A stretch of 28,601 nucleotides of DNA from a virus: the IMG/VR virus record IMGVR_UViG_3300006793_000195, positions 1-28,601 of that record; one strand, given 5' to 3'. This document shows positions 4,502 through 25,735 of this stretch, piece after piece. The number at the start of each line of letters is the position of its first letter. The first letter of the stretch is position 1. A program made the translations under genes and the position numbers. Under the pieces are notes generated by a model. The model saw only the letters and a list, made by a program, of their open reading frames with translations. It had not been told where the DNA came from and searched no databases.

Positions 4502-4523
4502 AATTTAACCTTAATTAAGTGAA

Positions 4524-14773: not shown

Positions 14774-14916
14774 TATTTCTTCTTTTTAGAAGCCATACCG
14801 CCGTAGCTGTATCCAGGCTTCTTTTTCATCGCCATACCACCGCCCATCATCTTAACCTTCGCAGGTTTACCCACAGGAGGATTAGACGCACCGCACTTCG
14901 CTTTAGTCATCTTCAT
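14773..14916 (-). CDS. 47-aa Met/Lys/Gly-rich mini-protein
   Basis: The ATG at 14916 (MKMTKAKCGASNPPVGKPAK) overlaps the end of the upstream gene by 14 nt and is preferred to an upstream in-frame start at 15018, which would lie deep inside that gene. The rest is MMGGGMAMKKKPGYSYGGMA followed by a KKKK end. Gly/Met/Lys-rich mini-proteins of this sort are common in marine phage late operons, and their function is not known. Confidence 0.6.
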   Translation of the reverse strand: MKMTKAKCGASNPPVGKPAKVKMMGGGMAMKKKPGYSYGGMASKKKK

Positions 14917-15139
14917 GTTTCTTTTCCCTATCAACGTAATGATCTGCTTGCTCAACTGTTGTTGAAGCTTCATCAAAACCAAAGAATTCGTCGTAACCAC
15001 GAAATATAAGGTTTTCATCCTGGGCCTGGCGGGTAGAGATTAATCCCTCAGATAGGAGATAATCTCTGACCTGCTCTAGACTAAGCTTCTTGCCTGTGGC
15101 TTGAAGAATGGCGGCACGGATGTATATGAGGTTTACCAA
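14903..15139 (-). CDS. 78-aa protein, first gene of the late operon
   Basis: This begins at TTG (15139) with an AAGGA ribosome site 6-7 nt upstream and lies about 28 nt downstream of the probable transcription start. It encodes a helical N-terminus (LIYIRAAILQATGKKLSLEQ, VRDYLLSEGLIS) and an acidic C-terminus (FRGYDEFFGFDEAS). The family is not recognised. The use of TTG is inferred; the next in-frame ATG would remove most of the protein. Confidence 0.65.
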   Translation of the reverse strand: MVNLIYIRAAILQATGKKLSLEQVRDYLLSEGLISTRQAQDENLIFRGYDEFFGFDEASTTVEQADHYVDREKKHEDD

Positions 15140-15203: not shown

Positions 15204-15242
15204 GACCATAACAAATAAATTAGCTATGGTATGTTTTTAGGG

Positions 15243-15306: not shown

Positions 15307-15468
15307 CTATGGTTTAAATACTTTATGGTGAATCTCACCACGACATATACCCATATCCTTTAATTGCCTGTCGGACATATTCTGTAACAGCCAATAGTTA
15401 GCTCGTTGCTGTTGTGATTTCTGGATAGATTTAAAGATACCATTAAGGCTGGCAAACACATAATTCAT
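15307..15468 (-). CDS. DUF1127 (YjiS-like) mini-protein
   Basis: A 53-aa protein from the ATG at 15468, which has a GGAG ribosome site 6 nt upstream. A second ATG at 15480 would add four residues but lacks such a site. The C-terminal half (LLQNMSDRQLKDMGICRGEI) matches the DUF1127 consensus of L-S-D-R-x-L-x-D-I/M-G-x-x-R-G-E/D-I. In alphaproteobacteria, short DUF1127 proteins such as CcaF1 of Rhodobacter bind RNA and affect small-RNA maturation. A phage copy could alter host RNA turnover, which is inference. It has a strong promoter containing the recurring operator. Confidence 0.75.
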   Translation of the reverse strand: MNYVFASLNGIFKSIQKSQQQRANYWLLQNMSDRQLKDMGICRGEIHHKVFKP

Positions 15469-15502
15469 AATATTCTCCATAGTTAAGTGTTTTAGTAACT
15501 AT

Positions 15503-15527
15503 ATTATACCAAACCATAACTATGGTT
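15503..15527 (-). promoter_or_regulatory. Promoter and palindromic operator of the DUF1127 gene
   Basis: On the minus strand there is a perfect TATAAT (15503-15508) with an extended -10 (TGG) but no clear -35 box. A 16-bp inverted repeat, AACCATA-AC-TATGGTT (15512-15527), occupies the -15 to -30 region. The same 14-bp core recurs at 20691 and 24451. Occupancy should block RNA polymerase or, if an activator binds, replace the missing -35 contact. Confidence 0.65.
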
Positions 15528-15531
15528 ACCT

Positions 15532-15966
15532 CTATGTATTACGAATACCCGCTATGCAGTCCGTAGCCTTCTCAACAGATACCTTAAACCATTCACCTCT
15601 ACGATCAGAGGATATTACATCTAAAAGCTTATGAGCCATAGATTCATCCTTACGCCTATCCTCAGACGATACCGCACAATGCAGGACATAATCCCTAAGA
15701 GGGCTAGAAGTCTGATAGCTACTGCACCTATCATTAGCATCAATAGCCATACCTACCTTAACCCATTCGGGCCAAGCAGGATTAGAGATTACATAAACGT
15801 AACCTTCTTTCGTAGAAGGTAAGTTTTCAAAACTAGAGAATGCAGCGTCATTAAAACTCTTATAACGACCAGGTTTATGAAGTGGATGAGAGAATGATAT
15901 ATACTTACCGTCCACCCACATACGACTGCGGTTATGTGCGTCTTTTAAAGCACCCTTAAACGGCAT
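15532..15966 (-). CDS. GIY-YIG family (T5orf172-like) nuclease
   Basis: A 144-aa protein with a C-terminal GIY-YIG-type domain: GYVYVISNP (55-63), WVKVGMA (69-74), R80, E108, H112 and GEWFKV (124-129). The Y-V-Y, K-V-G, Arg, H-x-L and GEWF order is characteristic of the T5orf172 branch of GIY-YIG nucleases, often stand-alone phage endonucleases or fused to DNA-binding domains. The first 50 residues carry MWVDGKYISFSHPLHKPGRY, which may contact DNA. It could be a homing-type or host-DNA-degrading enzyme. Its ATG overlaps the stop of the upstream gene by one base, so the two are co-translated. Confidence 0.75.
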   Translation of the reverse strand: MPFKGALKDAHNRSRMWVDGKYISFSHPLHKPGRYKSFNDAAFSSFENLPSTKEGYVYVISNPAWPEWVKVGMAIDANDRCSSYQTSSPLRDYVLHCAVSSEDRRKDESMAHKLLDVISSDRRGEWFKVSVEKATDCIAGIRNT

Positions 15967-16280
15967 CAGTTCACATCAAATAGATCTTCTACAGCCGCTA
16001 CGCTGTCTTCCATATTACGGGCTACTTCCCGTAGCTTCTCCCCTTGCCGAACAAGCTCATGGGCAACGACATAAAGCTGAGTATAATCGCCACTATCAAC
16101 TAAGAAATCTTTAACCGTATCTGTAACGCCAGATAGCTCAATCCTAGCCTCATTAGGCTCCTCTTCATCACCTACATAAATCAAAGCTACTAGGTAACAT
16201 ATTCCGTGGTCATCTACTTCAATATCGATGTCCACATTGGCACTAACCTCTAGGGCTAGATCCGCACTGTATTCACTCAT
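15966..16280 (-). CDS. Acidic protein of unknown function
   Basis: A 104-aa protein with strong negative charge: a beta-rich N-terminal half (VDIDIEVDDHGICYLVALIY) and a helical C-terminal half (LYVVAHELVRQGEKLREVAR). There is no membrane segment or known motif. It is the first gene of a two-gene operon with the GIY-YIG nuclease, driven by the promoter at 16322-16350. Acidic partners of phage nucleases can act as inhibitors or DNA mimics, but here that is only a suggestion. Confidence 0.65.
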   Translation of the reverse strand: MSEYSADLALEVSANVDIDIEVDDHGICYLVALIYVGDEEEPNEARIELSGVTDTVKDFLVDSGDYTQLYVVAHELVRQGEKLREVARNMEDSVAAVEDLFDVN

Positions 16281-16321
16281 AAGAGATCCACATATTAATA
16301 ACAGGTTTCCCTGTATTATGG

Positions 16322-16350
16322 ATATTAGCTAAGTACCATAACTGAGTCAA
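16322..16350 (-). promoter_or_regulatory. Sigma70-type promoter of the acidic-protein/nuclease operon
   Basis: On the minus strand: TTGACT, a 17-bp spacer and TAATAT. The spacer carries ACCATAACT (16335-16343), nine bases identical to the recurring operator, but the second half-site is missing. Confidence 0.75.
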
Positions 16351-16354
16351 TAGT

Positions 16355-16397
16355 AACTTTGCAAAGTTTACATTTACAGTTGCTAAGTTTGCAAACT
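16355..16397. promoter_or_regulatory. Two perfect palindromes sharing TTTGCAAA
   Basis: AACTTTGCAAAGTT (16355-16368) and AGTTTGCAAACT (16386-16397) are perfect palindromes with centres 30 bp apart, about three helical turns, immediately upstream of the promoter at 16322-16350. This geometry is typical of paired binding sites for a dimeric regulator. Confidence 0.55.
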
Positions 16398-16855
16398 ATT
16401 GTACGATGTTGACGGTTTTAAATCCTGACCCGCAATACTGGGCCTGTTTACGGTTATGATTTCCTGAAAATAGGTAGGGTTTGTATACGGTACGGGTACA
16501 CCCCCCCCTGGCACTCGCCCCCCTCAAAGAAAATAAAACCTAACAAATAAAATATATAGATAACAATAAATTGCCCTGGTATTTAGTAGGGATTTATCAT
16601 GCTGCAACCTTTTAGGTCATAGTTTCAAAGGGAAAAAATAAGCAATAATAAGGGGATAAACTTTCAATTGATTGCGGGAATTGGTCGAAGGTTTAAAGCC
16701 CTGGGAAAATGCACCAGAAAAACGCCCCGGAATTCTGTTGATAATTTTTAAAGGGCGGCGGGAAGGGCTTGGCGGTGTACAATATCCCGTACCTTTCCCC
16801 CTATCAGATCCCATCAAACCTCATCCCCTGGACATAATACCCACATAAGCCCCCA
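16398..16855. other. Gene-poor spacer at the edge of the accessory island
   Basis: I see no convincing gene here. It is a mix of AT-rich and C/G-run sequence, including an 8-C run (16501-16508) and a further C6 tract nearby. A 65-codon minus-strand ORF (16617-16814) has a GAGG only 4 nt before its ATG and no protein-like composition, so I do not call it. A leftward transcript from the promoter-like site at 16907 would cross this spacer and could be non-coding. Confidence 0.5.
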
Positions 16856-16953
16856 GGGATAACGCCCCAGGGGAAGCAATATCGTTAAGGGGACGGGTTC
16901 CTATATATTATAGCACTTTGTCCCCTTAAGGGATAACGCCCCAGGGGAAGCAA
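16856..16953. repeat. 24-bp direct repeats enclosing a 10-bp inverted repeat
   Basis: A 24-bp sequence starting GGGATAACGCC and ending GGGGAAGCAA is exactly repeated at 16856-16879 and 16930-16953. Each copy contains a CCCCAGGGG palindrome. Between them are TTAAGGGGAC (16885-16894) and its inverse GTCCCCTTAA (16920-16929), enclosing an AT-rich core with the promoter-like TATAAT. The symmetry suggests a multi-site control region, a recombination scar or a replication-related element. Confidence 0.75.
16907..16915 (-). promoter_or_regulatory. Extended -10 promoter-like site inside the repeat structure
   Basis: On the minus strand there is TGC followed by TATAAT; the 13-mer AAGTGCTATAATA is identical to that of the capsid promoter. 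There is no good -35 box 17 bp upstream. It lies downstream of the island terminator and points left into the gene-poor spacer. Confidence 0.45.
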
Positions 16954-16966
16954 CCCCAGGACATAG

Positions 16967-16990
16967 AAAAGCCCCCTTCAATGGGGGGGC
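16967..16990 (-). terminator. Rho-independent terminator of the island operon
   Basis: On the minus strand, GCCCCC and GGGGGC form the stem with a short loop, followed by TTTT. It lies 28 bp after the stop of the last island gene. Confidence 0.75.
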
Positions 16991-17018
16991 AATTCCTGGG
17001 GCTTTGAGGGGTTTGGTT

Positions 17019-17207
17019 TTATACCTTAAAAACCCCGCCAATAGTTTCCCCCTGGTCTATCATTTGGGTTGCACCAGTTTGCAGCAATTCGGTTAAATTA
17101 AAATCGTATCTTTCCGCAAAGCTTGGCAACTCTTGCGGGTCGATATAATTTAAACCGCCTGAAGTATCTGCAACCTTTGAACCATCCCGAAACCATATTT
17201 TAAACAT
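17019..17207 (-). CDS. 62-aa protein, last gene of the island
   Basis: A small soluble protein (MFKIWFRDGSKVADTSGGLN start) with a possible short DNA- or ligand-binding helix (FAERYDFNLTELLQ). It is not recognised. It overlaps the preceding gene by 8 nt and is followed by a terminator, so it closes the operon. Confidence 0.6.
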   Translation of the reverse strand: MFKIWFRDGSKVADTSGGLNYIDPQELPSFAERYDFNLTELLQTGATQMIDQGETIGGVFKV

Positions 17208-17421
17208 CGGCTGACTCCCCTTGCTCTAAATTATGGTCTAAATGCGGGGCCTGATTATATAGAGTCCCTGCAATTATATTGATAGCATCCGGGGCCTCGT
17301 AAACCCCATAGCGTTCAAAAAACCCGGCCCCTAACTTAAAACAGGTTTTCGCTATTAGGTCGGTGTTGTCGATAGAGTTAACCCTAGTTTCCTCTAATAC
17401 GTTTTTTATTTGTTCAAACAT
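17200..17421 (-). CDS. 73-aa protein of unknown function
   Basis: A mainly helical protein (MFEQIKNVLEETRVNSIDNT, LIAKTCFKLGAGFFERYG, APDAINIIAGTLYNQAP). Its ATG overlaps the stop of the upstream gene (TAATG), and its end overlaps the next start by 8 nt. No family is recognised. Coupled translation suggests that the three small proteins at 17019-17618 work together or are made in equal amounts. Confidence 0.6.
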   Translation of the reverse strand: MFEQIKNVLEETRVNSIDNTDLIAKTCFKLGAGFFERYGVYEAPDAINIIAGTLYNQAPHLDHNLEQGESADV

Positions 17422-17618
17422 TACACCCGCCCCCGCAATGCTTTTGGTTTTTTGTTTAACCGTTTAGTTTTTGGCTTGCTGGTATTAACTACGGTTAAAT
17501 CGTGGGTGATGATCCGGGGGGCTTTCTTTCCCATTGCCCCGAATTTTTTGGATTTAGCTTGACCGCTTGTGTTCGTGGTTTTCATTATGCCGTTTGGTTT
17601 TAGGGTTACGCTTTTCAT
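17421..17618 (-). CDS. 65-aa strongly basic protein
   Basis: A Lys/Arg-rich protein without hydrophobic core segments (SGQAKSKKFGAMGKKAPRII, PKTKRLNKKPKALRGRV), probably disordered and nucleic-acid binding. It starts at an ATG preceded by the island leader cassette with an AAAGGA ribosome site. An internal Met (residue 12) is an alternative start, but the leader distance favours the first. It resembles the basic mini-proteins of the late cluster in composition only. Confidence 0.6.
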   Translation of the reverse strand: MKSVTLKPNGIMKTTNTSGQAKSKKFGAMGKKAPRIITHDLTVVNTSKPKTKRLNKKPKALRGRV

Positions 17619-17670
17619 TTTGTTTGGTCCTTTTGTTTAGCTAGTAAGCCCCCCAGGCAATCCAGGGGGC
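17619..17670 (-). promoter_or_regulatory. Island leader cassette, copy 4
   Basis: On the minus strand a GC-rich hairpin (17648-17670, GCCCCC/GGGGGC stem) is followed by CTTACTAGCTAAACAAAAGG, then ACCAAACAAA and the ATG at 17618. The block CTAGCTAAACAAAGGACCA is shared with copies before 18622, 19124 and 20006. The remaining 17671-17761 holds only AT-rich sequence and a dubious 20-codon hydrophobic ORF starting at GTG. Confidence 0.75.
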
Positions 17671-17761
17671 GCATTGTTTCAGAATAGAAAGGGGGCGAAT
17701 TGTATTAGGTATAAAATACCAAATAAGGATAAAGCCCCCACCAGGTCGCCTATAAAACCTT

Positions 17762-18622
17762 TCACGCTGCAAAGCTTTCCGCCATGCCAAACAACCCCGC
17801 ATTCAGGCGCACGTTTTCGGTTAGGCTTGTGATTGCTTTTGCTTTGCGTTTAGTCCAAATCGGTTTTGCTTTGGTTTTAGAATAGACCTGAACACCCCCC
17901 CGCAGCACCGACTCTTGCAACCTATTGAATACAGTGTAGCAGTCATTTCCCCCATCCCCTAGGCGGCGAACCTTTAGGGCTTGCTGCATTGTTTCCCACG
18001 TTGTGGCTCTTATCCCGTTTTCGGTCCCTTCCAATTCCTGGGGGGTTGCTACCATATCCCAGCGCATTTTGAGGGCGTCATATGCAAAGTCTAAGCAATC
18101 GTTTGATGATAGGTTACGACTCCGCATTGTCTCAATAGACTCCATCATGGAGTCCAGGTTCTGGACCTGGTGAGTCAAAAGGTTTTCAAATTCCCTTGCG
18201 GTCACTTTGGAATGGCGCAACTTAGCGTCAAACCCTTCCCCTTCTTTGATCAATTGATTGCTACAAACCGCCCTAAAATTGCCCGTCATCAATCGCAGAC
18301 TCGAGCGTTTATTATGGCTGTTAAACAGTACCAGGTTTTTTTGATCCTTTTTCCCGAATTCGGCAGGACGTGCAAAGCTTATCATATGCTCTTGATAGGG
18401 AGTCATTGCCGGGGTTCTGCTAGGTTTTTGAATTGCCTTAGTAGGAACAAACCCATAGTCAGCAAGAATATTGATTGCGGATTCCGTATCAACAAAACCA
18501 TATCGACTCGAGGTATTAGGGCTTGCCGTTTTAGTAAATGCCGCCGGGCATGTTTTGGCTATGTCCTCAAATGTGAGGGCGGTTTGGTCGTTTTGTATTG
18601 TGTGAATTAAATCAAATGGCAT
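17762..18622 (-). CDS. DUF932-like phage/plasmid protein
   Basis: A 286-aa protein resembling DUF932 (phage/plasmid-like) proteins. It has YGFVDTESAINILADYGFVP near the N-terminus, then TPYQEHMISFARP, a core of LVLFNSHNKRSSLRLMTGNF and RAVCSNQLIKEGEGF, and later DCYTVFNRLQESVLRGG. The HDGxxAxxxxxGxFRxVCxNG-like core is the family hallmark, seen here as NSHNKRSSLRLMTGNFRAVC and SNQLI. The biochemical role is unknown; members often sit near replication, recombination or anti-defence genes on mobile elements. It is led by the island cassette. Codon and run composition (frequent GGG/CCC) differs from the flanking phage genes, suggesting transfer. Confidence 0.75.
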   Translation of the reverse strand: MPFDLIHTIQNDQTALTFEDIAKTCPAAFTKTASPNTSSRYGFVDTESAINILADYGFVPTKAIQKPSRTPAMTPYQEHMISFARPAEFGKKDQKNLVLFNSHNKRSSLRLMTGNFRAVCSNQLIKEGEGFDAKLRHSKVTAREFENLLTHQVQNLDSMMESIETMRSRNLSSNDCLDFAYDALKMRWDMVATPQELEGTENGIRATTWETMQQALKVRRLGDGGNDCYTVFNRLQESVLRGGVQVYSKTKAKPIWTKRKAKAITSLTENVRLNAGLFGMAESFAA

Positions 18623-18697
18623 TTTGTGGTCCTTTGTTTAGCTAGGTTTTTGTTGCAATAAGCTGCAACCCAATGCCCCCCAGGAATTGAGGGGGGC
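18623..18697 (-). promoter_or_regulatory. Island leader cassette, copy 3, with two hairpins
   Basis: On the minus strand: a GCCCCCC/GGGGGGC hairpin (18675-18697), a GTTGCA/TGCAAC hairpin (18651-18668) followed by AAAAA, then CCTAGCTAAACAAAGGACCA and the ATG at 18622. The first hairpin may terminate or protect the message of the upstream gene. Confidence 0.75.
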
Positions 18698-18710
18698 TAA
18701 GGGTTAGAGC

Positions 18711-19124
18711 CTAGGCAGGTACAAAGTGATGTGAATCCCGAATGCGTTCTGCTAATGGCATATCAATTTTATTGATCCGGGCGAATTGCTCTGTTAGCCG
18801 ATCCATTTTATTGCAGAGTCTTTCACTATCTTCGCCATATTTTGCGTTAAGGGCTAGGCGGTATGCTTTGGTTGCATCTGTTAGCAAGTCCAGGCGATTC
18901 CAATCGCAATTTTCAATCTTATGAATACGGTCCATAAAATCGGAATGTTTCTTTTTATCGGCGGCAATGCATGCGGCGGATTCTTCAGATATTTGATCAA
19001 GCTTTTTTTGCGTGTGGCGGTCCTGCAAATAGATCGTGACATATGCAAGCAATGCTGCAGTTGCGATGATAACAAAAAGATAAGCTGCAACGAAAAACGG
19101 GTTAGTTAATGTTTCATGTGTCAT
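18711..19124 (-). CDS. Membrane-anchored coiled-coil protein
   Basis: A 137-aa protein with one N-terminal transmembrane helix (around residues 10-33, FFVAAYLFVIIATAALLAYV). A long charged helical region follows (LQDRHTQKKLDQISEES, DRIHKIENCDWNRLD, NKMDRLTEQFARINKID), ending in RIRDSHHFVPA. An N-out or N-in single-pass anchor is likely, with the helical part probably in the cytoplasm. No family is recognised. It is preceded by the island cassette. An alternating Lys/Glu pattern suggests oligomerisation. Confidence 0.65.
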   Translation of the reverse strand: MTHETLTNPFFVAAYLFVIIATAALLAYVTIYLQDRHTQKKLDQISEESAACIAADKKKHSDFMDRIHKIENCDWNRLDLLTDATKAYRLALNAKYGEDSERLCNKMDRLTEQFARINKIDMPLAERIRDSHHFVPA

Positions 19125-19170
19125 TTGTTTGGTCCTTTGTTTAGCTAGTTAGGGGCAAGGTGTAAGCCCC
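19125..19170 (-). promoter_or_regulatory. Island leader cassette, copy 2
   Basis: On the minus strand a GGGGC/GCCCC hairpin (19152-19170) is followed by TAACTAGCTAAACAAAGGAC and CAAACAA before the ATG at 19124. Confidence 0.7.
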
Positions 19171-19224
19171 GCCCCTTAATTGATAACCATGATTCGTAAC
19201 TTAGTAAAGGGTTTTTATTAGGTG

Positions 19225-19299
19225 CTACCCAAAAACAATTGAACCCACCCAAAACCAAACCACCGCAAAACCGACGATATAATAGAGGGCGCTAGGCAT
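19225..19299 (-). CDS. Possible 24-aa transmembrane peptide
   Basis: The ATG overlaps the stop of the Gp88-like gene (TAATG), and the ORF encodes MPSALYYIVGFAVVWFWVGS plus IVFG, essentially one membrane helix. Stop-start overlap favours reinitiation. At this length chance cannot be excluded, so this is a tentative call. Confidence 0.3.
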   Translation of the reverse strand: MPSALYYIVGFAVVWFWVGSIVFG

Positions 19300-20006
19300 T
19301 ATGCCGCCCCCTGAAATTCTAAGGTTTCGGGGTTGTCTATAATAAAGGGACTCTTACTTGCCTGGATTGCTTTCCCCCCCTTTAATTTCAGCCCCACAAT
19401 AACGGGGCCAGAATTTAAATTGATTAAATCTGATTTGTCCCCATCAATCACAATTCTATTTAAAAAGGTTTTTGGCATGCCCCCCCTAAATACCGCCGAT
19501 ATCGGGGCGCTAGTTTTTAGGGCTTTGTTTACCTGGTTTTGATATGCCGGGGCGGCACTATATGAAAACATCAATTTATAGTTTTCGGGGGTTCTGCCTA
19601 ATCGGGCGGCAAGTTTTGTGTAGTCGTAAAATAAAGCCTGGGGAAACATTTGCGGAATCCCGTACTTTTCCCAGGCGATATCCGAAATTGTATTGAGTCG
19701 GAATGCCGCCCGTTTTTGTTGCTTTTCACATTTACGAATGAATGCGGCAATTTCCTTTTTGAGGGTTTCCAGGAATTGCGCTTGATCATCCCTCCATAAA
19801 TCCGATTTTGATTGTCTGGCCCTAGCAACAGAATTCATTTGACCCCGTCCCGCCGATACCAGGCAATCAACAGAACACTGCGCAATATCCCTTGCGGGGC
19901 ATATTATAGCGTTTGGCATTAGGGATAGGCTAGCAATCAAGTAATCTGTACCCGTTTGGGTTTTCAGAATTTTGGTATTACTGGCATTTGTGTTGAGTAG
20001 TTTCAT
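19299..20006 (-). CDS. Gp88-like phage protein with three-Cys motif
   Basis: A 235-aa protein resembling phage 'gene product 88'-type proteins, from memory. A cysteine motif, CPARDIAQCSVDCLVSAGRG (C-x7-C-x3-C), is followed by ARQSKSDLWRDDQAQFLETL, KEIAAFIRKCEKQ, RLNTISDIAWEKYGIPQMFP, FYDYTKLAARLGR and NYKLMFSYSA. The clustered cysteines could hold an iron-sulfur cluster or zinc; the R-x-N and FYDYTK blocks look catalytic. The biochemical activity is not known to me. It is the first gene of the island operon, preceded by cassette copy 1 and a terminator-like hairpin. Confidence 0.65.
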   Translation of the reverse strand: MKLLNTNASNTKILKTQTGTDYLIASLSLMPNAIICPARDIAQCSVDCLVSAGRGQMNSVARARQSKSDLWRDDQAQFLETLKKEIAAFIRKCEKQQKRAAFRLNTISDIAWEKYGIPQMFPQALFYDYTKLAARLGRTPENYKLMFSYSAAPAYQNQVNKALKTSAPISAVFRGGMPKTFLNRIVIDGDKSDLINLNSGPVIVGLKLKGGKAIQASKSPFIIDNPETLEFQGAA

Positions 20007-20059
20007 TTTCTTTGGTCCTTTTGTTTAGCTAGTAAAAAAATCGGGTGGTTAAATCCCGA
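20007..20059 (-). promoter_or_regulatory. Island leader cassette, copy 1, with attenuator-like hairpin
   Basis: On the minus strand a TCGGG/CCCGA stem (20041-20059) is followed by seven U residues, a classic intrinsic terminator. It is immediately followed by ACTAGCTAAACAAAAGGACC and AAAGAAA before the ATG at 20006. There is no room for a promoter between terminator and gene, so expression must come from read-through (attenuation) or from the cassette itself. Confidence 0.7.
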
Positions 20060-20209
20060 CTCTTAATGACCATAACAAAGGTAAATTGATTCGCAATTAT
20101 AAAAACCAAATTTATAATTTTAAAAAATGCTAAGAAAAATTGTCAGAATTTTGTCATAACTGACCATCTAATAAGCAGAAAAATGCTATCGCTATCATAT
20201 CACCTAAGT
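20060..20209. other. AT-rich divergent spacer
   Basis: No gene is present. It contains an operator half-site ACCATAAC (20069-20076), very AT-rich sequence (20095-20130) with a TATAAT-like box on the minus strand near 20097-20102, and TTGTCA repeats near 20140-20157. This is the likely promoter region for the leftward island and the rightward 63-aa gene, and a plausible DNA-unwinding site. Confidence 0.45.
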
Positions 20210-20496
20210 AGCCCTTTAATAATGATTGACGTGCGAGTATTTTTTAAATTAAACCTAATTCCATTAGAGCAGGAGACTATTAATATGATACTAGGACCAG
20301 GACAGGCTAAAGAGATTGGAGAGGCGTTGGTGGATGCATCTGAACGATCCATTGAAGACGATAAGGACCACTATGTTATTTACTTAGATGAAGCTGGGAA
20401 GGCTGTATGCATGGCTGTTGACCCTGATGCCAACAGTTACGGTTACAAGATAGTAGCTCATGTAACAGCCCTTTAAATACATCTGACGTGCGAGTA
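20210..20496 (+). repeat. 30-bp direct repeats flanking a small gene
   Basis: AGCCCTTTAA, 7 variable bases and TGACGTGCGAGTA occur at 20210-20239 and again at 20467-20496. The copies bracket the 63-aa gene, and the second overlaps its final codons. They may be regulator sites, integrase arm sites or remnants of a small insertion. Confidence 0.7.
20285..20476 (+). CDS. 63-aa protein of unknown function
   Basis: The ATG at 20285 has an AGGAG ribosome site; the longer frame from 20183 lacks one and has an unlikely N-terminus. The product (MILGPGQAKEIGEALVDASE, VIYLDEAGKAVC, YGYKIVAHVTAL) looks like a small alpha/beta protein. It is an independent transcription unit ending in a terminator at 20501 and lies just ahead of the integrase between direct repeats. 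It could be a small regulator or directionality-type factor, but it has no visible helix-turn-helix. Confidence 0.65.
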   Translation: MILGPGQAKEIGEALVDASERSIEDDKDHYVIYLDEAGKAVCMAVDPDANSYGYKIVAHVTAL

Positions 20497-20500
20497 AATT

Positions 20501-20522
20501 AGCCCCCTTTGTGGGGCTTTTT
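20501..20522 (+). terminator. Rho-independent terminator after the 63-aa gene
   Basis: AGCCCC and GGGGCT form a stem with a 6-nt loop, followed by TTTT on the plus strand. Confidence 0.8.
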
Positions 20523-20550
20523 ACATTTATACTGATACTTGATTCGCAAC

Positions 20551-20580
20551 AAAAAACCCCCCGACTATAAAACCGGGGGG
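20551..20580 (-). terminator. Strong terminator for leftward transcription
   Basis: CCCCCCG (20557-20563) and CGGGGGG (20574-20580) form a 7-bp stem. Six A residues precede it on the plus strand, giving a U-tract for leftward transcripts. It insulates the integrase region from the leftward genes. Confidence 0.75.
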
Positions 20581-20674
20581 CTGTTCTTACACAGTGAACA
20601 GTGTGAACAGGGAGGATGTTCACGAGCTAAGATTAGCACAATCACTTAACAAAGTGCAAGTAATTATTTTCTTA

Positions 20675-20704
20675 TTGACTCCGACTCGATACCACAACTA
20701 TGGT
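20675..20704 (+). promoter_or_regulatory. Integrase promoter overlapped by the recurring operator
   Basis: TTGACT (20675-20680), an 18-bp spacer, and TATGGT (20699-20704) as a weak -10. The 14-bp near-palindrome ACCACAACTATGGT (20691-20704) covers the -10 box, so a bound protein would be expected to repress. Confidence 0.6.
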
Positions 20705-20737
20705 CATCCTATCCGCATAACCACGGGAGGTTGTAGA

Positions 20738-21844
20738 ATGGGATCGATTAAATACTTAGAACGGCATGTGCTGTCCACAGGTCAAATATCTTGGGGTGCA
20801 AACCCATCTAAGGCGGTGCGAGAAGCACTCCTGGTAAAATATGAAAGCTACCAAGAGAAAAAAGACGCCGTTGACCGCTGCATGGAATGGGAGAAGGCAT
20901 TTCTAGATTACAAACGAGGGATTGATAGGCAAAAGCACATCAGTGAGAACTCTGTTAATGGATTAATAGCTGCGTATAAAAATACATCCAATTGGGACCG
21001 TCTTTCGGTCAATAGTAAGAATACATACCAGCAACTTATAGATTCTGTGATCAATACTCGCATAGGACGCTCAAATATCGTCTTTGGTCAGACCCTGCAC
21101 CACAATATCACCGTAAAAGTAGTGGAAAGCTTACACAAACAACTGTGTAACGATGTGAGTGAGCATCGTGCAAACCATGTGTGTAAAGTTTTACGCCGTG
21201 TGTGGTTCGTAGGTTTCCGTTTAGGTCTTACACGTTCCAACCCCTTTTCTAAGATGGGTCTAGCCACTCTACCCTCACGGGATGTTCGCTGGGAGAAGGA
21301 ACACATAGATATATTTGTAGCTAAAGCTGACGAAATGGATCTGTGGTCGATAGGTACGTTAGCCTTGATGTGCTACGATCTATGCCAGCGTATTGGAGAC
21401 ATGCGACAGATCCGTTGGGGCAATTATGATCTCCAAGATGATGGCTTCTTCGACTTTGTGCAGGAGAAGAGCCGCACGGTTCGTAAACCGCAAGGCAACC
21501 TAGTGTCTGTCCCTGTTGTGAATGAGCAACTGAAGGAACGGCTCGACAGCCTAACCCGTGGCGGCAAAAATGACTTCATTATTCTTAATGAGCGTACAGG
21601 TCGGCCTTACACTCGGTGGGCTTATAAGACGGTAGCAGAGGTGCGCAAAGCCGCTGGGCTACCCGAAGAACTCAAGATCTCAGACTTACGCCGTACTGGC
21701 GCTACAGAGGCTGGAGAAGCTGGTCTTACAGAAGACGAAATCATGGCGCTTACAGGCCATACTTCACGGGAAGTGGTGAGTGTCTACGTCAAGAAAACCC
21801 GCCGCATGGCAGCAACCGCAGCAAGAAAAAGGCACGGAAGATGA
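20738..21844 (+). CDS. int: Tyrosine recombinase (phage integrase)
   Basis: A 368-aa integrase starting at the ATG at 20738, which has GGGAGG 8 nt upstream; an in-frame start at 20594 lies upstream of the promoter. N-terminal arm/core-binding region (residues 1-175), then the catalytic domain: R218 (CQRIGDMRQ), K244, L317-R318 (SDLRRTGAT), H341 (LTGHTS) and Y350 (SVYVKK). The first histidine of the H-x-x-R motif is replaced by S315, a variation tolerated in several phage integrases. It should recombine attP with a host attB; the tRNA fragment at 22943-22980 is the likely attP core. It is followed by two coupled mini-ORFs. Confidence 0.93.
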   Translation: MGSIKYLERHVLSTGQISWGANPSKAVREALLVKYESYQEKKDAVDRCMEWEKAFLDYKRGIDRQKHISENSVNGLIAAYKNTSNWDRLSVNSKNTYQQLIDSVINTRIGRSNIVFGQTLHHNITVKVVESLHKQLCNDVSEHRANHVCKVLRRVWFVGFRLGLTRSNPFSKMGLATLPSRDVRWEKEHIDIFVAKADEMDLWSIGTLALMCYDLCQRIGDMRQIRWGNYDLQDDGFFDFVQEKSRTVRKPQGNLVSVPVVNEQLKERLDSLTRGGKNDFIILNERTGRPYTRWAYKTVAEVRKAAGLPEELKISDLRRTGATEAGEAGLTEDEIMALTGHTSREVVSVYVKKTRRMAATAARKRHGR

Positions 21845-22002
21845 GAAATGTAAATGAGGCAAGAGCAGCCTTTGAAGATGAACTGAGGAAGGTATTTAAG
21901 TCAGCGGATATTCCTACATATCATATTTACCCGCTCACTGAACGGTTTATCGATTTAGTTACTGCCATCCGCTGGGAGCTAAGAAAAACAGATGGACGTT
22001 AG
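21841..22002 (+). CDS. 53-aa protein coupled to the integrase
   Basis: The ATG overlaps the integrase stop (ATGA). The product (MRNVNEARAAFEDELRKVFK, then IYPLTERFIDLVTAIRWELR) is helical. Not recognised. Stop-start overlap on both sides supports translation. Confidence 0.6.
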   Translation: MRNVNEARAAFEDELRKVFKSADIPTYHIYPLTERFIDLVTAIRWELRKTDGR

Positions 22003-22147
22003 GATACCTCCAGAACTGGAGCGTCACTTGGAATCTATTGGGGTGCTTACTAACAACCCATTAGACGAACATGAAGACCTTCCCCACCCAAATGTATTTG
22101 AATTTAACAAAGTAGAACTAGACGATAATGGAGAACCGCCTTGGTAA
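21992..22147 (+). CDS. 51-aa acidic protein upstream of thyX
   Basis: The ORF (MDVRIPPELERHLESIGVLT, NNPLDEHEDLPHP, KVELDDNGEPPW) overlaps the previous gene by 11 nt and thyX by 7 nt. The LExxGVLxNNPLDEHED block resembles small proteins found next to thyX or ribonucleotide-metabolism genes in marine phages, from memory. The function is unknown. Confidence 0.6.
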   Translation: MDVRIPPELERHLESIGVLTNNPLDEHEDLPHPNVFEFNKVELDDNGEPPW

Positions 22148-22872
22148 AAATATTAGCTAAACTTGTTGGACTAACTCAACCTACCATAAATATGGATGCC
22201 AGTTCGCCCGAAGAACTGATCTCTTATGCTGCCAGGGTTTCCAACCCATCTAACCAGGCCAACCATAAGACAGCCGAGGCGCTTCTTAAATACTGCATGA
22301 AGAATAAGCATTGGTCCGTGTTTGAGATGGCTAACGCTGTTGTAGAGGTCAAGGCTCCTAGGGATATAACCCGTCAGTTATTGCGTCACCGCAGCTTCAG
22401 CTTTCAGGAATTCAGCCAGCGATACTCAGATGAAATAGAATTCACAAATCGTGAGTATCGTAGGCAAGATACAAAGAACCGTCAGAACAGTGTAGATGAC
22501 CTGACCGACGAAGTTAAAACCCGAAACGGTTTCCTTACTCTTGATGTTAAAACAGCGGCGAAAGAAGCCTATGAAGAAATGAGGTCTATGAACGTAGCCA
22601 AAGAAACAGCCCGTGCGCTGCTTCCAGAGGGGCTTACGATGTCCACGCTCTATGTGAACGGCACACTACGGTCCTGGCTCCATTACCTGGATGTACGGGA
22701 CGATGAAGGGGTCACGCAATGGGAGCATGTCCTATTAGCCCGTGAAATTAAAAAGGTTATGACCCCAGCGTTCCCCATTATTATGGGTGATAACAAACCG
22801 CAGATCAGACCAATGACTGATGAAGAAAGACAAAGAGCAACCTATAAGTCTATACAGAATCAATACAGGTAA
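22141..22872 (+). CDS. thyX: Flavin-dependent thymidylate synthase ThyX
   Basis: A 243-aa enzyme making dTMP from dUMP with methylene-tetrahydrofolate and FAD/NADPH, supplying phage DNA synthesis. The ThyX signature RHRxxSxxxxSxR is intact (R82-H83-R84, S87, S92, R94), and the substrate-binding block LLPEGLTMSTLYVNGTLRSW is present. The start is TTG at 22141 with GGAG 7-8 nt upstream; it overlaps the preceding ORF by 7 nt. The length fits the family. It is the last gene of the integrase operon and is followed by a terminator-like hairpin. Confidence 0.95.
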   Translation: MVKILAKLVGLTQPTINMDASSPEELISYAARVSNPSNQANHKTAEALLKYCMKNKHWSVFEMANAVVEVKAPRDITRQLLRHRSFSFQEFSQRYSDEIEFTNREYRRQDTKNRQNSVDDLTDEVKTRNGFLTLDVKTAAKEAYEEMRSMNVAKETARALLPEGLTMSTLYVNGTLRSWLHYLDVRDDEGVTQWEHVLLAREIKKVMTPAFPIIMGDNKPQIRPMTDEERQRATYKSIQNQYR

Positions 22873-22901
22873 GGGGTGACCCGACCAATTTTAACCAATC
22901 C

Positions 22902-22941
22902 AATCCAATGATACTAGTTAAGTTACTGATATCATTGGATT
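22902..22941 (+). terminator. 12-bp inverted repeat after thyX
   Basis: AATCCAATGATA (22902-22913) and TATCATTGGATT (22930-22941) form a perfect 12-bp stem with a 16-nt loop, followed by a short T-rich stretch. It is either a terminator for the integrase-thyX operon or a structural part of attP, since it abuts the tRNA fragment. Confidence 0.55.
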
Positions 22942-22942
22942 T

Positions 22943-22980
22943 TGGTTGCGGGAGTAGGATTTGAACCTACGACCTTCAGG
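22943..22980 (-). other. Probable attP core: 3' part of an initiator-type tRNA gene
   Basis: On the minus strand the sequence reads CCTGA (anticodon stem 3' arm), AGGTC (variable loop), GTAGGTTCAAATCCTAC (T-arm), TCCCGCA (acceptor), A73 and CCA. The 5' half of a tRNA is absent. The combination with A72-A73 and CCTGAAGGTCGTAGG matches alphaproteobacterial tRNA-fMet as I remember it. Homology stops at the anticodon loop, a typical crossover place for tyrosine integrases. Integration here would restore the host tRNA 3' end. Confidence 0.75.
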
Positions 22981-23122
22981 GTCTGCGAAACTTATTAAAT
23001 ATCAATAAGATACAGAGATATCAATTAGTTAGGCTAAAAACCTATCACCTTACTAAATACCACAATTAACTGTTGACTAGTTGACCATTGACTGTATCCT
23101 ACGGACACCCCGTCCAGGGGTG
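22981..23122 (+). promoter_or_regulatory. attP arm region and primase promoter/leader
   Basis: TATCAAT boxes at 23000-23006 and 23019-23025, plus TATCATT at 22930-22936, could be integrase arm sites. Three TTGAC units at 9-bp spacing (23073-23095) follow. TTGACT (23073-23078), a 16-bp spacer and TATCCT (23095-23100) form a moderate promoter. A CACCCC/GGGGTG hairpin (23106-23122) lies in the leader before the AGGGAGGG ribosome site of the primase. Confidence 0.5.
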
Positions 23123-23144
23123 GAATACCTAGGGAGGGTATACA

Positions 23145-23927
23145 ATGAACTTTAGTTATCGTGACCAGTGGGACATATTACAATCTATAAATCTTACGGA
23201 TGGTGAGCATAAGTCTATAGATTGCCCGTTCTGTGGTGGACGTAAGAAATTCAGTATATCCAAGATGGACGGTAAAACTCTTTGGAACTGCTATAAAGCA
23301 AGCTGTACAGCTAAAGGTGTATACTCTGGTCCCAGGACTATTGAAGAAGCTAAAGCGTATATGGCAGGAAAGAATAAAACAAAGTTTGAGAAAAAGACTA
23401 CCCCTCTACCCACAATGGTTACGTCGATAGATAATCACCCCGCCGCAGTGGAATATATTAAATCAGTTAATAGTTATGAAGCTTACCAAGATGGGTCAGT
23501 TACTTTGAAGTATTGCCCTAATGAGGACAGAGTCCTTTTCTATACACATACTAGTGAAGGTGCTGTTGGTAGAAGCCTCTCTAGTAGAGGCCCTAAGTGG
23601 TGGTCATATGGAAATACACAGGCTGGAGTTCACGTTGGTAAGGGATCTACAGCGGTACTAGTTGAAGATGCAGCTTCTGCCTGTGCTGTATCCAGATGTA
23701 ATAATACAGTAGGTGTCGCACTATTAGGTACGAACCTAACTAAAGACCTCGAAAAATCACTTAATAGTTACAATAAAATAATTATTGTCCTTGACAATGA
23801 CGCTAAACAAAAGGCAGTGTTTATGTGTCGGGCTTTATCTAAGTCCACAACAATGAGGATAACTAAGTTAGATCTAAAGGTTCTAAACTTACAAGATACA
23901 GAGAGACTGCTAAATGATTATTATTGA
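23145..23927 (+). CDS. DNA primase with zinc-binding and TOPRIM domains
   Basis: A 260-aa primase. The N-terminal zinc ribbon is CPFC (C27, C30) with C49 and C54, followed by a linker and a TOPRIM domain with acidic residues E174 (VLVEDAASA) and D217/D219 (VLDNDAK). It resembles the primase half of T7 gp4, but here the helicase is a separate protein encoded at 24518. It should lay RNA primers for lagging-strand synthesis with the helicase and family A polymerase. The start is ATG with a strong AGGGAGGG ribosome site. Third-position AT preference is higher than in the integrase. Confidence 0.88.
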   Translation: MNFSYRDQWDILQSINLTDGEHKSIDCPFCGGRKKFSISKMDGKTLWNCYKASCTAKGVYSGPRTIEEAKAYMAGKNKTKFEKKTTPLPTMVTSIDNHPAAVEYIKSVNSYEAYQDGSVTLKYCPNEDRVLFYTHTSEGAVGRSLSSRGPKWWSYGNTQAGVHVGKGSTAVLVEDAASACAVSRCNNTVGVALLGTNLTKDLEKSLNSYNKIIIVLDNDAKQKAVFMCRALSKSTTMRITKLDLKVLNLQDTERLLNDYY

Positions 23928-24108
23928 CACTAAGAATACTACACTTAAATCTAAATATAAGTGGTCTTATTTGATATCGTCCACCGCAGGTAAGTCATGT
24001 AGGACTGCCTCAAAGATGTCTGCTAAGTGCGATAGATACGGGCCTAGTACTTTTACCGCTATTTGTACATATTCACTTCATCCACACCTTGGCCCCCCTG
24101 CTCTTTAA
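23914..24108 (+). CDS. Possible 64-aa basic protein overlapping the primase end
   Basis: This ORF (MIIIDTKNTTLKSKYKWSYL start, several Cys and Lys) overlaps the primase by 14 nt with GAGAG 8 nt before its ATG. The composition does not clearly look like a folded protein, and the C-terminal part runs into a hairpin-rich spacer. It fills a gap that would otherwise be gene-free. Tentative. Confidence 0.35.
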   Translation: MIIIDTKNTTLKSKYKWSYLISSTAGKSCRTASKMSAKCDRYGPSTFTAICTYSLHPHLGPPAL

Positions 24109-24171
24109 GTTTATGGGGGCTGTGCAGGTAACAACTGCACTATGGATAATCTATCATTTTAAAGGTGTACT

Positions 24172-24378
24172 ATGAAATTACGAGCGTTGGTCCTACTGGA
24201 CTACGATCTGCCAGATGCAGGATTAATTGAAGCTGCTGATCAACAGAAAGCACTCCAGAGCAAGGTAGACGAAATAACTAAAGGTAATTCAAACATTGTG
24301 TATAGCACAGTGGATATGCGTGAGCGCAGAGGGGATACCCAACCTGACTTAAAGAAGATGAAATTTCGTCAGACATAA
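24172..24378 (+). CDS. 68-aa protein of unknown function
   Basis: A small protein starting with MKLRALVLLDYDLPDAGLIE, a beta strand followed by AADQQKALQSKVDEITKG, suggesting a ferredoxin-like fold, and ending MRERRGDTQPDLKKMKFRQT. The ribosome site AAAGGTG lies 7 nt upstream. It sits between primase and helicase with a terminator after it, so it may be an independently controlled replication accessory protein. The spacer before it (24109-24171) contains a GTGCAG/CTGCAC hairpin (24122-24140). Confidence 0.65.
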   Translation: MKLRALVLLDYDLPDAGLIEAADQQKALQSKVDEITKGNSNIVYSTVDMRERRGDTQPDLKKMKFRQT

Positions 24379-24410
24379 ATAACTGTAACAAAACAGTTTA
24401 ATCTACATTA

Positions 24411-24441
24411 AGGCCCTGGGTTTTACCTGGGGTCTTTTTTT
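24411..24441 (+). terminator. Rho-independent terminator before the helicase unit
   Basis: An 11-bp stem, including three G-U pairs, with a T-rich loop (AGGCCCTGGGT / ACCTGGGGTCT) is followed by a run of seven T residues. Confidence 0.8.
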
Positions 24442-24444
24442 ATC

Positions 24445-24474
24445 TTGATTACCATTACTATGGTCCTCTATACA
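24445..24474 (+). promoter_or_regulatory. Helicase promoter with operator in the spacer
   Basis: TTGATT (24445-24450), an 18-bp spacer and TATACA (24469-24474). The near-palindrome ACCATTACTATGGT (24451-24464) fills the spacer. Downstream, CTAGCTAGAAAGGGCCAAAC just before the ATG resembles the island leader cassette. Confidence 0.65.
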
Positions 24475-24517: not shown

Positions 24518-25735
24518 ATGGATAAAGCATTGTTGAAGACGCTACTGTCTTCAGAATTCTATCAAGCAAATAAAACAAAAATGAGGCAGTCACTATTCAC
24601 AGGTAACAATGCAGAGGTTTATAAAACCATTGCCCAGGCACAGGATAAATATGATCAGGATGTTAATACTAACGACATCCTAGCAATCTGGGCCACCAAC
24701 AACCCCGTAGCTACAGTTTCTGAGAAAGAAGACTTTGCTGATACGTTAGCGGAAGTGCGGCAGCAAACACCCCTGACACAAGAGATAGCACGGGATGTTA
24801 TTGGGGATCTCTGGCGCAAAGAGACAGGCCGGGATGTAACCAACTTAGGTATTCAAATGGCTGAAGGCCATGTGGATGCAATGGCTAAACTGAAGAGCCT
24901 GATTGAGCGCACCTCAGAAGACTACCTTCCAGACGATTTTGGTGAGCCGACAACAGATGATCTGCATGAATTACTCGCACAAGCAAGTGATGAGTCACGA
25001 TGGAAATTTAACATCAATCAGCTTTCTAGGAATGTATACGGACTAGGCCCTAGTGAGTTTATGATTATCTTCGCCAGACCTGAAACAGGTAAGAGCGCCC
25101 TAGCTGTTAGCCTATGTTCTGCTCCAGATGGTTTCTGTCAGCAAGGTGCGAAGGTACTATACATTGGTAACGAGGAAGCAACCCGGCGCACGAAGCTACG
25201 GGCGATACAATCATTCACAGGAATGACCACAACAGATATACAAGCTAACCCTGATTTAGCTTCAAGCCGTTACCTCGCAATTCGTGATCGTTTAATTATG
25301 AAAGACGCCCAGGAATGGGATATGACTATGTTGGATGGGTATGTCGCCCGTATCAAGCCTGATATCCTGGTGGTGGATCAACTTGATAAAGTCAACATAT
25401 CGGGTCAGTTTGGTGGTACACATGAAAAGCTTCGTGAAATATACCGACAAGCTAGAGAATTAGCTAAACGGCATGAATGCGGTATCATCGCTGTATCCCA
25501 GGCAAGTGCGGAAGCAGAGGGACGTGTACGCCTAGACTTCTCTATGATGGAGAACAGCCGCACTGGTAAGGCAGCGGAAGCAGATCTTATTTGTGGTGTG
25601 GGTAAATCCTCTGGGGAGGATGATGATGGCCCTGATCCCACTAGGTTCCTACAAATCTCCAAGAACAAATTATCAGGTTGGCATGGTCAAATCATCTGCA
25701 ATCTACAGGCCGAAATAACAAGGTATGTAGACTGA
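24518..25735 (+). CDS. Replicative DNA helicase, DnaB/RecA fold
   Basis: A 405-aa helicase. The N-terminal helical part (1-160) probably contacts the primase. The ATPase domain has Walker A ARPETGKS (186-193, DnaB-like ARPxxGKS), catalytic Glu in GNEE (217-220), Walker B ILVVDQLD (283-290), and later VSQASAEAEGR and ENSRTGKAAEADLI with arginine-finger candidates. It should unwind DNA at the fork with the primase and polymerase. It starts a new transcription unit with its own terminator-insulated promoter. The stop overlaps the methyltransferase start by one base. Confidence 0.9.
   Translation: MDKALLKTLLSSEFYQANKTKMRQSLFTGNNAEVYKTIAQAQDKYDQDVNTNDILAIWATNNPVATVSEKEDFADTLAEVRQQTPLTQEIARDVIGDLWRKETGRDVTNLGIQMAEGHVDAMAKLKSLIERTSEDYLPDDFGEPTTDDLHELLAQASDESRWKFNINQLSRNVYGLGPSEFMIIFARPETGKSALAVSLCSAPDGFCQQGAKVLYIGNEEATRRTKLRAIQSFTGMTTTDIQANPDLASSRYLAIRDRLIMKDAQEWDMTMLDGYVARIKPDILVVDQLDKVNISGQFGGTHEKLREIYRQARELAKRHECGIIAVSQASAEAEGRVRLDFSMMENSRTGKAAEADLICGVGKSSGEDDDGPDPTRFLQISKNKLSGWHGQIICNLQAEITRYVD

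Follow-up and report, generated by a model that had tools for sequence, protein, structure and literature searches.

A near-palindromic 14-mer, a putative operator, at three predicted promoters of an HMO-2011-type phage fragment

Lambda-type CI/Cro operators are near-palindromes lying over core promoters, phage-specific in sequence and arranged in tandem triplets. The sites described here share with them the near-palindromic form, a similar length, the position over core promoters, and phage-specific sequence, but they are scattered rather than in tandem triplets, and no CI/Cro-type protein was found. The stoperators of mycobacteriophage L5 are asymmetric and dispersed, many of them outside promoters; here too one short site is dispersed over a phage genome, although it is near-palindromic and its exact copies are all in promoters. 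In mycobacteriophage BPs, a short palindrome (12 bp) with variable half-sites is found in several promoters, those promoters are controlled by one phage repressor, gp33, and attP lies inside the known repressor gene (PMC4557955). The present sites have a similar arrangement of short palindromes in several promoters with variable half-sites, but here there is no recognised repressor and the probable attP is intergenic.

The DNA analysed (the window, 28,601 nt; IMG/VR record IMGVR_UViG_3300006793_000195) is, as judged from its gene order, helicase, terminase, and a tRNA-derived 44-bp segment identical to CRP-235, a fragment of an HMO-2011-type (CRP-3-like) Roseobacter-type phage. Its helicase is 35-57% identical to those of CRP/HMO-2011 phages and 100% identical to that of a 52,969-bp contig (G001), which was used as a sister genome and is taken to be near-complete from a size near that of the CRP isolates. 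Phages of the HMO-2011 type are reported to be dominant in the ocean (PMC9038755). The lysogeny-related features of the window are an integrase gene and the probable attP; integration itself is reported for CRP-3, at a host tRNA-Met (PMC6918029). The word “repressor” is absent from the main text of both papers.

Sites and predicted promoters

The initial annotation had picked out three near-identical 14-mers, each inside a promoter (of a DUF1127 gene, the integrase, and the helicase). They are located exactly where it put them: ACCATAACTATGGT (15513-15526), ACCACAACTATGGT (20691-20704), and ACCATTACTATGGT (24451-24464) each have 0 mismatches to ACCAYWACTATGGT, and all are noncoding and lie over or beside predicted -35/-10 elements. 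These and the other features of the window are as follows.

4508-4521, minus: CACTTA-type site CACTTAATTAAGGT between the coat gene and the gene that follows on the minus strand (sequence, profile scan)
15205-15212, minus: half-site GTTATGGT, immediately upstream of the predicted promoter of the 78-aa gene (TTGACT-18-TACAAT, 15203-15174) (sequence, promoter scan)
15307-15480, minus: DUF1127 protein, 57 aa (PF06568; ATG 15480, alternative ATG 15468)
15476-15489, minus: site of hybrid type, CACTTAACTATGGA, that overlaps the likely ribosome-binding site within the DUF1127 leader (sequence)
15503-15508, minus: predicted DUF1127 promoter -10, TATAAT, with extended -10 TG (TGGTATAAT) (sequence, orthologues)
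15513-15526, minus: putative operator ACCATAGTTATGGT, separated by 4 bp from the downstream DUF1127 -10 (exact match, conservation in relatives)
16335-16342, minus: half-site GTTATGGT, within the 17-bp spacer of the predicted promoter of the 104-aa gene (TTGACT-17-TAATAT, 16350-16322) (sequence, promoter scan)
20069-20082, minus: weaker site ACCTTTGTTATGGT upstream of a gp88-like gene on the minus strand (sequence)
20643-20656, plus: second operator type CACTTAACAAAGTG, one mismatch away from the consensus of the CRP-3 type and starting 48 bp upstream of the start of the 20691 site
20691-20704, plus: putative operator ACCACAACTATGGT, its right half forming the integrase -10 (TATGGT) (exact match, promoter scan, conservation)
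20738-21844, plus: tyrosine integrase (PF00589)
22945-22990, minus: probable attP core, consisting of a tRNA gene's 3′ end (identical to CRP-235 over 44 bp and to CRP-3 over 41 bp)
24451-24464, plus: putative operator ACCATTACTATGGT in the helicase promoter spacer (sequence, 11 aligned sequences)
24518-25735, plus: DnaB-like helicase (PF03796)

All window promoters are predictions, and promoter-like matches in the region were no commoner than in shuffled sequence. The helicase promoter is read as TTGATT (24445-24450) and TATACA (24469-24474), the 18-bp gap between them being filled by the site, and a strong terminator precedes it. For the integrase, the promoter scan gives TTGACT-18-TATGGT at 20675-20704, overlapped by the 14-mer; ATG 20738 replaced GTG 20594 as the likely start of this gene. 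No -35 was seen in the DUF1127 promoter of the window, while its TATAAT recurs at the same place in the orthologues of CRP-3, CRP-212, CRP-235, CRP-738, and a further relative, G010. This overlap with core promoter elements, at all three predicted promoters, suggests a repressor. It seems probable that a transcription regulator encoded by the phage, most likely acting as a repressor, has the three 14-mers as its operators.

It is rather unlikely that they are instead promoter-type elements, -10/spacer sequences read by RNA polymerase or an activator. The right half of the integrase site coincides with its -10, the lack of a -35 at the DUF1127 gene is possible for activator-dependent promoters, and TATAACTATG strings occur at or near the DUF1127 promoters of the distant phages CRP-2, CRP-13, CRP-207, CRP-345, and CRP-603. 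One argument against such a role is the variable distance to the -10: the site is 4 bp upstream of it for DUF1127 and helicase, overlaps it for integrase, and precedes even the -35 in the case of the 78-aa gene. Another is that the sites are near-palindromic and differ between phages, neither of which RNA polymerase would need.

Half-sites ACCATAAC, claimed earlier in or beside promoters at 15205, 16335, and 20069, are present, in minus-strand promoter regions; the sister genome has six copies against 1.9 expected, counting both strands, and four of the six fall in the promoter regions of genes on the minus strand. The ACCATAAC half of the 20069 site is kept at the same place in the relative L022, and CATAACAAAGTGGC is found at a comparable place in CRP-3. 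The second site type (20643-20656 and others) had been overlooked; at this position CACTTAACTAAGTG or a recognisable variant is present in 10 of 10 aligned sequences, L022 being the most diverged. Sites joining both half types (CACTTAACTATGGA at 15476, and CACTTAGTTATGGT upstream of the G010 orthologue of the 104-aa gene) suggest a single operator family. The expectation that hits would be confined to promoters held for the exact copies, all in promoters, and failed for looser ones: at up to 3 mismatches to ACCATAACTATGGT, 5 of 9 window positions were not noncoding.

Several other repeats were seen. A leader, TTTGTTTAGCTAGT (reverse complement ACTAGCTAAACAAA), precedes several minus-strand genes (e.g., at 17619-17761 and 20007-20040), and is the strongest recurring noncoding 14-mer. 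The direct repeat GACGTGCGAGTA has exactly two copies (20228-20241, 20485-20497), one on each side of a 63-aa ORF (20285-20476); the second copy comes after the stop codon of this gene and before its terminator. Such a pair is also present in CRP-235 and G010, in CRP-3, where both copies have changed together to GACGTGCCAGTC, and in degenerate form in CRP-212. GCATAGCGGGTAT (around 15545-15557, minus), some 36 bp ahead of the DUF1127 -10, is exact in the sister genome, CRP-3, and CRP-738 and varied in other phages; the adjoining upstream reading frames differ. A 740-bp noncoding region (16281-17018) with palindromes AACTTTGCAAAGTT and AGTTTGCAAACT is a possible replication origin or second control region, and CRP-3-type records have a similar-sized gap at this place.

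Relatives and candidate regulators

Conservation at the same promoters, posed beforehand as a test, was found in relatives sharing 87% or more helicase identity, with the changes falling mostly at central positions of the site. The DUF1127 site is conserved in L040, L041, and L043 and degenerate in L042; the helicase site is present in 11 aligned sequences with at most a few changes. Outside this clade the sites take a phage-specific form: de novo recurrence in CRP-3 and CRP-212 gave a different near-palindrome, of the CACTTAACTAAGTG type, at the integrase and DUF1127 promoters, and in CRP-3 at the helicase promoter as well. The 14-mer match between promoters was 11.8 within a phage vs 10.7 between phages (label permutation, p = 1.5e-4). 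Several within-phage best matches (CRP-235 DUF1127, CRP-738, G010) were not the operator, so that these three phages add little to this result.

With the CRP-3/CRP-212 profile, noncoding sites made up 6 of the top 10 in G001, 6 in G010, 5 in CRP-738, and 4 in CRP-235, against a background of ~6-7% (p = 1.9e-5, 9.8e-6, 1.1e-4, and 3e-3, respectively). The reverse test, with the ACCAT profile in the other phages, gave no clear prediction of noncoding sites (p 0.02 to 1); this poor transfer points to a clade-specific form, its support coming from one clade. Loose matches to CACTTAATTAAGTG in six genomes, including the motif-defining CRP-3 and CRP-212, were noncoding in 20 of 34 cases; letter-permuted palindromes had a mean of 1.6 noncoding matches, and 1 of 300 was as high. 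Palindromes at DUF1127 promoters were individually significant in 3 of 10 phages (sum p = 0.008, mononucleotide shuffles). As judged from these sequence comparisons, the window motif is a clade-specific form of a more general putative operator.

The initial annotation recognised no classical repressor in the window, and this is borne out for the families tested: HTH_3, HTH_17, and RHH_1 have no match there or in the near-complete G001. Pfam/PHROG scans of the small ORFs of both gave no convincing regulator, and Rfam gave no match. It had placed the regulator either outside the window or in a new type; the former is now less likely, since the 53-kb sister genome is also without a recognisable repressor. 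The 78-aa protein (14903-15139) has a model that is weak past residue 40 and no significant fold match, the 63-aa and 104-aa proteins look by eye too acidic for a typical repressor, and an HTH match inside a large CRP-3 ORF is sub-threshold. An Xre-like HTH ORF in L022 (45-401, minus), below the HTH_3 cut-off, has no homologue among the relatives' loci compared; it belongs to an accessory block that in the window holds a DUF932 gene.

The DUF1127 protein is present in all six phages compared, and matches PF06568 at 32.2 bits (cut-off 23.3), as do 10 of 10 aligned phage homologues. Its suggested role as a host-takeover-type gene is unsupported; the gene lies upstream of the packaging and structural genes on the minus strand. 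The AlphaFold model (pLDDT 92) has a long helix followed by two short ones. No HTH profile matches the protein, and its best PDB fold matches (E 7.9 and 9.7) are not significant; a by-eye likeness to the Cro/Fis recognition helix is unsupported by either search. For DUF1127 proteins elsewhere, binding to RNA or to proteins is described (PMC12501420). Small, and with a putative operator in its own promoter, it is one unproven candidate rather than an identification. A doubtful further reading is that temperate HMO-2011-type phages are under the control of a DNA-binding regulator whose family is not yet recognised as regulatory, perhaps DUF1127 itself as an autoregulated Cro-like repressor, with specificity and operators shifting together between clades.

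Phages often borrow host regulators, and the sites might be those of a host transcription factor, used by the phage as a sensor. CRP-3 and CRP-212, both on host strain FZCC0040, do have similar sites; this weakened the argument against a host factor from site differences among phages of a single host, and host genomes were then scanned directly. Among 121 host-family genomes, the exact consensus (the only form searched) was found in none as CACTTARYTAAGTG and in two as ACCATARYTATGGT, so that it does not point to a host regulon with sites in host promoters. Site sequences also vary with phage clade. A host factor is improbable on these grounds, and the near-absence of the exact consensus argues that the regulator is probably phage-encoded.

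Comparison with chance

Allowing up to 3 mismatches, ACCAYWACTATGGT matches the window 20 times, a count inflated by palindromic double counting (shuffle mean 8.25, maximum 15). Because the motif was picked after the data had been seen, less biased tests were run. Among recurring noncoding 14-mers of the sister genome it is the second family, behind the leader repeat; the leader repeat also topped an unbiased triple-14-mer test, which by itself therefore gives the operator no ranking. Upstream of the integrase, the motif is the best-conserved 14 nt (rank 1 of 97 in 10 sequences). Its conservation at the helicase promoter is 94% vs 80% for the rest, but it ranks 14 of 107 there, other parts of the promoter being equally conserved.

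Chance similarity, in which promoter hexamers and close kinship alone would account for the conservation, could draw on that choice after reading, on the closeness of the relatives, and on the loose matches in coding DNA. It has a slim probability, since within-phage matching, conservation at the promoters, the noncoding share of loose matches, and profile transfer each exceed what it would give, with controls. Integrase arm-type or other recombination sites are highly improbable: two sites do lie just upstream of the integrase gene, but the three 14-mers are in unrelated promoters 9 kb apart, at distances of about 1.5 to 7.5 kb from the probable attP core.

A possible mode of regulation

If the 14-mers are operators of a phage repressor, a dimer bound to the near-palindrome, whose half-site is ACCATA, would lie over the -35/-10 region and shut off three genes: the integrase, the helicase (for replication), and DUF1127, which precedes the packaging and structural genes. 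This would have a role in lysogeny or in lytic timing. Other phages of the subgroup would use the related half-site CACTTA likewise; in the clade of the window, the main promoter sites would have shifted to ACCATA, with some CACTTA sites kept. The two kinds of site may be read by one regulator or by two related ones. The original proposal of a single regulator linking lysogeny, replication, and a host-takeover gene keeps its core, an operator-like site common to three promoters, with two regulators as an alternative and the takeover element unsupported.

The sites could serve as bait for a regulator of abundant marine phages, giving a handle on a control protein that has escaped recognition, and phages that share a host strain but differ in their sites could be used to test for immunity groups.
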